The notes beneath the pieces are model-generated. The model saw only the letters and a program-made list of their open reading frames with translations. It did not search any database and was not told the DNA's origin. This document shows positions 2,154 to 26,098 of a stretch of DNA of 47,133 nucleotides, piece by piece (positions within the stretch are counted from its first letter, which is position 1; each line of letters starts with the position of its first letter). This DNA comes from Methanobacteriota archaeon. Its GTDB lineage: Archaea > Thermoplasmatota > Thermoplasmata > Methanomassiliicoccales > UBA472. The position numbers and the translations under genes are program-made. The DNA lies in assembly GCA_021372335.1 (NCBI GenBank), contig JAJFUR010000007.1:1-47133 (forward strand). Reading direction: 5' to 3'.

Positions 2154-2469
2154 GGTGCTAGGCCACGGGGGTTGCCGCTCGGACCGCTAGAGGTTGTCCA
2201 ACCACTGGCTCAGCCCCGCTCCCCTTCGAGCGTAGGTAGTCCGTGGTAAGGCTGCTCCCGTCAGGGCCTAGCCCGTTCTCCACGACTAGAGCAAGGGGTG
2301 CCGCCCTCCAGCTGCACCGCGATGCTGCCACCGACCCCGTAGGACAGGGCCTCAACGTCAATGATTGGGCCTCTAGCGCTCCGGATACGACGTCCCCCGC
2401 TGTCACCCCCGCCTATCGACGATTACGGTGTACAAGGACACGCCGAACGTCCCGGTCAAGCCTAGCAGG
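2154..2469 (-). ncRNA. ffs: Signal recognition particle (7S) RNA
   Basis: About 315 nt, transcribed leftward. The 5' end carries UGCUAGGC (2467-2460), which pairs with GCCUAGCA at the 3' end (2163-2156), closing the archaeal helix. After the 5' arm come the UUCGGCG and UGUACACCGUAAUCG elements of the 5' domain. Helix 8 is clear at 2250-2274: GGC-U-AGG-CCC, tetraloop UGAC, GGG-AGCA-GCC, the conserved SRP54-binding asymmetric loop. The apical loop is UGAC rather than the common GNAR. A TATA box lies 20-30 bp upstream (2486-2499), and UUUAUUU after the 3' end may terminate it. It works with the SRP54 protein encoded at 24755. End positions are approximate to a few bases. Confidence 0.9.
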
Positions 2470-18732: not shown

Positions 18733-18829
18733 TGGTGGACACTGGGGGATTTGAACCCCCGGCCTCCGCCTTGCGAAGGCGGCGATCTTTAGCGACGTCG
18801 TGAAGACGCATCCGCTGATCTAAGTGCCC
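18733..18829 (-). tRNA. tRNA-Ala(CGC) with a 22-nt intron in the D-loop
   Basis: Acceptor arms are GGGCACT (18829-18823) and AGTGTCC (18743-18737), including the G3-U70 pair that marks alanine tRNA. CCA is encoded after discriminator A. The anticodon arm is CCGCC-TTCGCAA-GGCGG, anticodon CGC; the T-arm is GGGGG-TTCAAAT-CCCCC. The D-stem GATC/GATC (18820-18817, 18787-18784) encloses 29 nt, far too long for a D-loop. It folds as a full bulge-helix-bulge: outer D-stem, 3-nt bulge AAA, 4-bp helix AGCG/CGCU, 3-nt bulge GAU, inner helix GCGUC/GACGU, loop UUCAC. Cleavage after the second base of each bulge removes 18810-18789 (22 nt) and leaves a 7-nt D-loop AGCGGAA, normal for archaeal tRNA-Ala. 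A TATA box GGATTATAAAC is at 18866-18856. Confidence 0.9.
18789..18810 (-). other. Predicted noncanonical tRNA intron
   Basis: The 22 nt between the two predicted splice points in the tRNA-Ala D-loop. It begins UGCGUC, has loop UUCAC and ends CGCUAA. The usual archaeal intron position is 37/38, next to the anticodon; this one is in the D-loop around position 20/21. Confidence 0.75.
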
Positions 18830-19058
18830 GTGCGAAGCTCAGGAATCGTACCCACGTTTATAATCCTTTGTAGGTGGAGAACGCCCCTACGGGGCCATCC
18901 CCCTTCCCCGCTCGACCTATCGTTCCGGTCCCAGGACAGGGTATGGGAGCCGGCCCGAACTACCAAGGCCCAAGATCATCAAGGACGTTCGCATGGATAT
19001 TATTATTTATGTCAGGGTGTCAGGGATGTCAGGGCGTACTTCGAATTCTGGTGATGCC

Positions 19059-24754: not shown

Positions 24755-26098
24755 ATGGTATTGGAAGGGTTGGGGCAATCGCTTAGGGACGCCCTAAGAA
24801 AAGTGGCGGGCTCCAGCAACGTGGATGAGAAGCTGATAAAGGAGGTGTCCAAGGACATCCAGAGAGCGCTCCTCCAGGCGGACGTCAACGTGAAGCTGGT
24901 CCTGGAGCTTACCAAGGAAATGGAGCGCCGGGCGCTCACGGAGAGGCCCCCCGCGGGCAAGTCCGCGCGGGAGCACGTCATCAGGATAATCTACGAGGAA
25001 CTGGTCAAGATCCTCGGCGAGCAGAGGACGCTCCCCTTGGGCAAGCAGGTGATCATGATGGTCGGCCTGTATGGCCAGGGGAAGACCACTACCGCCGGGA
25101 AGCTCGCCCGATACTTCCACAAGAAAGGGCTGAAGGTCGGCCTGATAGCCGCGGACGTGCATCGGCCGGCCGCCTACGACCAGCTCAAGCAGATCGGTGA
25201 CAAGGTCGGGGTGCGCGTTTTCGGGAGCCCCGGGGAGCGGTCGGCGGTCAAGATCGTCGAGGCCGGCATGAGGGAGCTCAGCGGCCTGGACGTGATCATC
25301 ATCGACACCTCTGGCAGGCATGCCCTGGAGGCGGACCTCATAGAGGAGCTCAAGGCGGTGGCCAAGGTGGCCAACCCCGACGAGCGCATCCTGGTTATGG
25401 ACGCGAGCGTTGGGCAGCAGGCCGGGCCGCAGGCCCAGGCGTTCCACGACGCGGTGGGCATCACCTCCGTCATCCTGACGAAGATGGACGGGACGGCCAA
25501 GGGAGGGGGGGCGCTGAGCGCGGTCTCCCGCACCAAGGCCCCCATCGTCTTCATCGGCGTGGGGGAGCACCTGGAGGACCTCGACCCGTTCATCCCGGCA
25601 CGCTTCATCTCGCGCATGCTGGGGATGGGGGACATTCAATCGCTCATCGAGACGGCCAAGGAGACCATGACCGAGGAACAGGCCCTGGAAACGACCCGGA
25701 AGATCATGTCCGGCAGGTTCTCCCTCAAGGAGATGTACGAGCAGATGGAGATGCTCACGAACATGGGCCCCCTCAAGAAGCTGATGAGCATGCTCCCCGG
25801 CCTGGGCGGGGGGCTGCAGGACAAGGTCGACGTGGAGGAGACCCAGGAGCGTCTGCGCCGGTACCGCATCATCATGGACTCGATGACCGAGGAGGAGATG
25901 GAGAACCCCAAGCTCATCAAGTCCTCCCGGGTCATGCGCATCGCCCGGGGCTCGGGCATGGACCCCAAGCACGTCCGGGAACTACTGCAGCAGTATAACA
26001 CATCCAAGAAGGCCGTGAGGGGGCTGATGGGCAACCGCAAGCTGCGCAAGCAGCTCATGAAGCAGATGCAGGGCGGGCAGCTGGAAGGGTTGCAATGA
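24755..26098 (+). CDS. srp54: Signal recognition particle 54 kDa protein
   Basis: A 447-residue GTPase that binds SRP RNA helix 8 and signal sequences. Amino-terminal helical N-domain (about 1-90), G-domain with GLYGQGKTTTAGKLA (G1), AADVHRPAAYDQL, IIDTSGRH (G3) and LTKMDGTAKGGGALS (G4/G5). The methionine-rich M-domain from about residue 295 contains EQMEMLTNMGPLKKLMSMLPG and the RNA-binding SRVMRIARGSG helix. Its RNA partner is encoded at 2154-2469. The stop overlaps the trmY start by four bases. Confidence 0.97.
   Translation: MVLEGLGQSLRDALRKVAGSSNVDEKLIKEVSKDIQRALLQADVNVKLVLELTKEMERRALTERPPAGKSAREHVIRIIYEELVKILGEQRTLPLGKQVIMMVGLYGQGKTTTAGKLARYFHKKGLKVGLIAADVHRPAAYDQLKQIGDKVGVRVFGSPGERSAVKIVEAGMRELSGLDVIIIDTSGRHALEADLIEELKAVAKVANPDERILVMDASVGQQAGPQAQAFHDAVGITSVILTKMDGTAKGGGALSAVSRTKAPIVFIGVGEHLEDLDPFIPARFISRMLGMGDIQSLIETAKETMTEEQALETTRKIMSGRFSLKEMYEQMEMLTNMGPLKKLMSMLPGLGGGLQDKVDVEETQERLRRYRIIMDSMTEEEMENPKLIKSSRVMRIARGSGMDPKHVRELLQQYNTSKKAVRGLMGNRKLRKQLMKQMQGGQLEGLQ

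Follow-up and report, generated by a model that had tools for sequence, protein, structure and literature searches.

Noncanonical bulge-helix-bulge (BHB) intron sites in archaeal tRNA genes, position 20/21 among them, are found mainly in Crenarchaeota and are especially frequent in Thermoproteales, whereas euryarchaeal tRNA genes served by alpha4 or alpha2 endonucleases are described as carrying one intron at the canonical position; archaeal introns overall span 11-129 nt, with medians mostly of 12-25 nt (PMC4090602). The nearest euryarchaeal exception is Methanopyrus kandleri, in which both tRNA-Glu isoacceptors have a D-loop intron and precursors have been seen by RNA-Seq (PMC3695527), and whose endonuclease is heteromeric (PMC4033280). 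Homodimeric alpha2 enzymes are regarded as strict for the BHB (PMC4033280, PMC12397907), although an opposing source holds that homodimeric enzymes do cut relaxed motifs (PMC8707768).

The tRNA-Ala(CGC) gene that we describe here resembles the noncanonical crenarchaeal cases in its BHB, its 20/21 site and the predicted enzymes, and differs from the canonical-only pattern reviewed for euryarchaea (PMC4090602) in that D-loop introns are conserved across a clade whose EndA fits an alpha2 architecture. With the tRNA-Glu genes of M. kandleri it shares a D-loop intron in a euryarchaeon (PMC3695527), but in that single species tRNA-Glu carries it in addition to another intron, while here it is the sole intron and recurs in Ala and Thr tRNAs of many species. 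Canonical 37/38 BHB introns share its chemistry and differ in position. Our searches of open-access papers turned up none on D-loop introns in this order, and the set in this archaeal phylum is apparently undescribed so far. Since other archaea also have introns at 20/21, and M. kandleri has D-loop introns, we regard the set as novel and conserved but of a familiar type, and not as a new mechanism.

A D-loop insert with bulge-helix-bulge geometry

The window, by which we mean the whole 47,133-nt stretch of DNA analysed, contains a tRNA-Ala(CGC) gene that is complete and runs along the minus strand from 18829 to 18733, with G1 at 18829 and A73 at 18736. Its acceptor stem is GGGCACU/AGUGUCC, including the G3-U70 pair, and its D-stem is GAUC/GAUC; the first-pass annotation, which had called it an otherwise normal tRNA-Ala with G3-U70, was right in this, and we add the strand. 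The features are as follows.

18856..18863, minus strand: conserved TATA-box-like TTATAAAC, 27-34 nt upstream of G1 (aligned upstream regions)
18811..18829, minus strand: 5' exon, nt 1-20, comprising the acceptor 5' strand, U8A9, the D-stem 5' strand GAUC and D-loop AGCGGA (fold, intronless orthologues)
18813..18816, minus strand: BHB central helix, exon strand AGCG (nt 14-18), paired with 18791-18794 (fold, covariation)
18810..18812, minus strand: bulge 1, GA^U, predicted 5' cut after GA (fold, bulge conservation, established cut rule)
18789..18810, minus strand: 22-nt BHB intron UGCGUCUUCACGACGUCGCUAA at position 20/21 (fold, covariation, missing from exact syntenic orthologues)
18805..18809, minus strand: inner helix, 5' strand GCGUC (fold, covariation)
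18795..18799, minus strand: inner helix, 3' strand GACGU (fold, covariation)
18791..18794, minus strand: BHB central helix, intron strand CGCU (fold, covariation)
18788..18790, minus strand: bulge 2, AA^A, predicted 3' cut before A21 (fold, bulge conservation, established cut rule)
18736..18788, minus strand: 3' exon, A21 to A73, with the anticodon CGC at 18773-18775
18733..18735, minus strand: genome-encoded CCA (some orthologous loci have no encoded CCA)

Between the D-stem strands lie 29 nt, AGCGGAUGCGUCUUCACGACGUCGCUAAA, for which the annotation had proposed a 3-4-3 BHB; both the minimum free energy and the centroid structure (z = -4.9) agree, reading D-stem / AGCG / GAU / GCGUC (UUCAC) GACGU / CGCU / AAA. 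The motif is perfect, with a 4-bp helix between two 3-nt bulges where exons and intron meet, one pair of the inner helix being G-U, and the same geometry with a 5-bp inner helix arose in 17/300,000 shuffles of the 29-nt loop. In archaeal BHB motifs each bulge is cut after its second nucleotide. Splicing at these points is predicted to leave the junction AGCGGAAGATC and a normal cloverleaf of 72 nt (75 with CCA) with a 7-nt D-loop, AGCGGAA; the site, 20/21, is away from the canonical 37/38.

Automated annotation handled the gene poorly. ARAGORN missed it in default mode, and the Rfam match, to tRNA, reached just 30.7 bits and skipped the D-arm. The 29-nt intron that ARAGORN reported in intron mode was at the wrong place and was discarded after folding and comparison. 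Elsewhere in the window we note an archaeal SRP RNA (2156-2467, minus strand, 175 bits) and an SRP54 gene (24755-26098).

Intronless orthologues and covariation

The predicted spliced tRNA is identical in 72/72 nt to intronless genes of two genomes of the same genus (G002 and G008) and of contig C1 of G021. All three loci lie in synteny with the window, at ~80% DNA identity across as much as 1.4 kb, and share the upstream TTATAAAC box. The removal of 22 nt foreseen in the annotation, which would restore a 7-nt D-loop and a 75-nt form with CCA, yields a sequence that occurs in nature. Since the intronless relatives match the predicted product letter for letter, the intron is very probably real.

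For covariation we aligned 27 precursors of Ala(CGC) and Thr(CGT) that contain the intron. Standard pairs occupy 96.7% of the cells of the central and inner intron helices, falling to 32-47% when the helices are slid out of register, and double-change cells number 42 against 14.7 +/- 2.8 in shuffles (0/500 reaching the observed count), which argues for selection on splicing. Across 60 distinct D-loop intron sequences the 3-nt bulges are kept, bulge 1 being GAU, GAA, GTN or GCA and bulge 2 A-N-R. The central helix of these sequences is mostly AGCG:CGCU, AGTG:CACT, AGCG:CGTT or AGAG:CTCT, its outer pair being mismatched in some (AGCG:CGCG, AGCG:CGCC).

These comparisons bear on whether the 22 nt might instead be retained, giving a mature tRNA with an enlarged, structured D-loop. 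Taken as such, the lengthened D-arm does form a stable hairpin, but the insert sits exactly where its removal yields the intronless orthologue sequence, the conserved bulges are expected of an endonuclease site and not of a simple hairpin, and D-loops at other tRNA loci of the source genome measure 7-11 nt; we consider retention very improbable. Slightly less credit still is due to the idea of a disrupted pseudogene whose function tRNA-Ala(UGC) takes over by wobble. A tRNA-Ala(TGC) gene is indeed present in the source genome, and its product might in principle decode GCG, but all stems of the CGC gene are intact, its TATA-like box is conserved, its exons are almost unchanged in five intron-carrying species, and the intron covariation speaks for splicing under selection. 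A second, intact tRNA-Ala(CGC) gene, which the annotation had named as a sign that this one is inactive, was not found in searches of the source genome (a fragmented assembly, 94% complete).

An assembly artefact is the least probable reading, to the point of being negligible. The hairpin can trouble assembly, as is evident in G003 (G003:C2:79363-79419, L067), where most of the sequence of the intron hairpin and anticodon arm is missing and NN stands in its place; we accordingly rejected the shortened tRNA-Ala of that genome as a real variant. An artefactual insert is already contradicted by independent assemblies that carry it with variations, one of them in just 6 contigs (G005), and by the same architecture for tRNA-Thr in the single-contig genome G015.

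In a codon tree of RpoB, the intronless G002 and G008 are nested in a group with intron-bearing G000 and G003 (decisive branch support 68; G003 is counted as intron-bearing despite its assembly gap in the hairpin). This nesting fits one or two precise losses, and within the genus at least one loss of the intron is more probable than repeated gains. G021, a g7 genome, has its own g7-type tRNA-Ala(CGC) besides the C1 copy, which is identical to the spliced g1 form and has g1-like flanks (L046, C1 1483-1572 of the locus; L084); the C1 copy may represent contamination, estimated at 5% for G021, or transfer. The Ala introns of g1 and of f5 g17 both start TGCGTC, which may reflect common descent, transfer or constraint. 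The EndA tree gave no order of families. Near homologues of the neighbouring gene in other contigs, BLAST and ARAGORN detected no tRNA-Ala, and these loci were left out.

Distribution of D-loop introns

The annotation had placed the intron near the lower size limit, and in this it was mistaken: 22 nt is an ordinary length within the published 11-129 nt range (PMC4090602), and we found introns of 13-16 nt at the same position. Nor is the intron an isolated oddity; it belongs to a conserved D-loop intron set in this part of the phylum. A neighbouring protein, 63% identical to one from a Methanomassiliicoccales MAG, places the source organism, a methanogen-related archaeon, in an order close to Methanomassiliicoccales. 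In the source genome itself, tRNA-Thr(CGT) has an intron at 20/21 with a similar fold, Thr(GGT) has the intronless loop AGAGGTA, and several tRNA genes carry canonical 37/38 BHB introns. A covariance model, calibrated such that intron-bearing genes score at least 93 bits and intronless genes at most 71 bits, found at least one such D-loop intron in 41/147 genomes of the order: 20 in family f1, 13 in f6, 6 in f5 and one each in f3 and f4, with none in f2. Among 390 genomes sampled across the phylum, five that lie beyond the order are intron-bearing, with Thr(CGT) in G365, G480 and G413, Ala(CGC) in G430 and Thr(GGT) in G421.

Introns at 20/21 thus occur in Ala(CGC), Thr(CGT) and Thr(GGT), the last also in several f1 and f5 genomes, and range from 13 to 32 nt. 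A D-loop insert of 22-23 nt is also present in Leu(CAA), at 21/22, in six species of the genus (G005:C3:321208-321314, L106 and L181; L182-L186), with a central helix GGTC:GACC or GGCC and a 5-bp inner helix; Leu(CAA) of g7 relatives (L187, L188) is without it, and no Leu(CAA) gene was found in the source genome. A link between the trait and CNN anticodons, as in Ala CGC, Thr CGT and Leu CAA, was considered and then dropped because Thr(GGT) introns were found.

The tRNA-Ala(CGC) intron fits a strict BHB, and some relatives depart from it. The Thr(CGT) intron of G413 (G413:C34:13289-13373, L154), at just 13 nt, has a central helix of 4 bp and almost nothing of an inner one; several introns have an A-G mismatch in the central helix; and in Leu(CAA) the D-stem is not flush with the bulge. 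Separately, a tRNA-Arg(TCT)-like gene in G015 (G015:C1:1425150-1426000, L113), whose match ends after the 5' half at the anticodon loop, possibly contains a long canonical-position intron.

Splicing machinery

The source genome encodes EndA as a single 347-aa ORF with two copies each of PF02778 (N-terminal) and PF01974 (catalytic), and two PF01974 copies lie within one ORF in 11/11 genomes tested. The nearest solved structures are archaeal splicing endonucleases. The C-terminal copy carries FRVY, HHS and VKKEILFA, which we take to be the expected places of the catalytic Tyr, His and Lys. This domain architecture fits an enzyme of the alpha2 type. RtcB is encoded in the source genome as well. 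In G029 (G029:C26:48059-50770), the RtcB match falls into two parts of a single 958-aa open frame with ~1,350 bases between them, an interruption suggestive of an intein or another in-frame insert.

Discussion

The annotation's reading of a D-loop intron is supported by the orthologues, the covariation, the bulges of 60 sequences and the EndA and RtcB genes. On this basis we hold the full splicing model of a 22-nt BHB intron with high confidence, and the archaeal endonuclease very likely splices it. In the precursor, the intron would fold with exon nt 14-18 into a strict 3-4-3 BHB for which the D-stem serves as outer helix; EndA, presumably in an alpha2 arrangement of its subunits, would cut after the second nucleotide of both bulges; and RtcB would join the halves into the 72-nt tRNA (75 with CCA) with its normal 7-nt D-loop. 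The intron itself probably has no role except being removed.

More tentatively, and with somewhat more doubt than belief, we suggest for the phylum that D-loop introns at 20/21 are old and recurrent in tRNAs with short D-loops, have been precisely lost, perhaps moved between isoacceptors, and include relaxed BHB forms such as the 13-nt, A-G-mismatched and Leu(CAA) examples. If this is true, an alpha2-type EndA must cut such relaxed forms, contrary to its described strictness.

The tRNA-Ala(CGC) intron and its relatives extend noncanonical tRNA introns to a euryarchaeal clade to which reviews assign canonical-position introns only. As happened here with ARAGORN and Rfam, tRNA annotation can overlook or misplace such genes. 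Natural pairs of one tRNA gene with and without its intron offer material for the study of intron loss, and the D-loop introns are substrates with which the strictness of two-unit splicing endonucleases may be probed.
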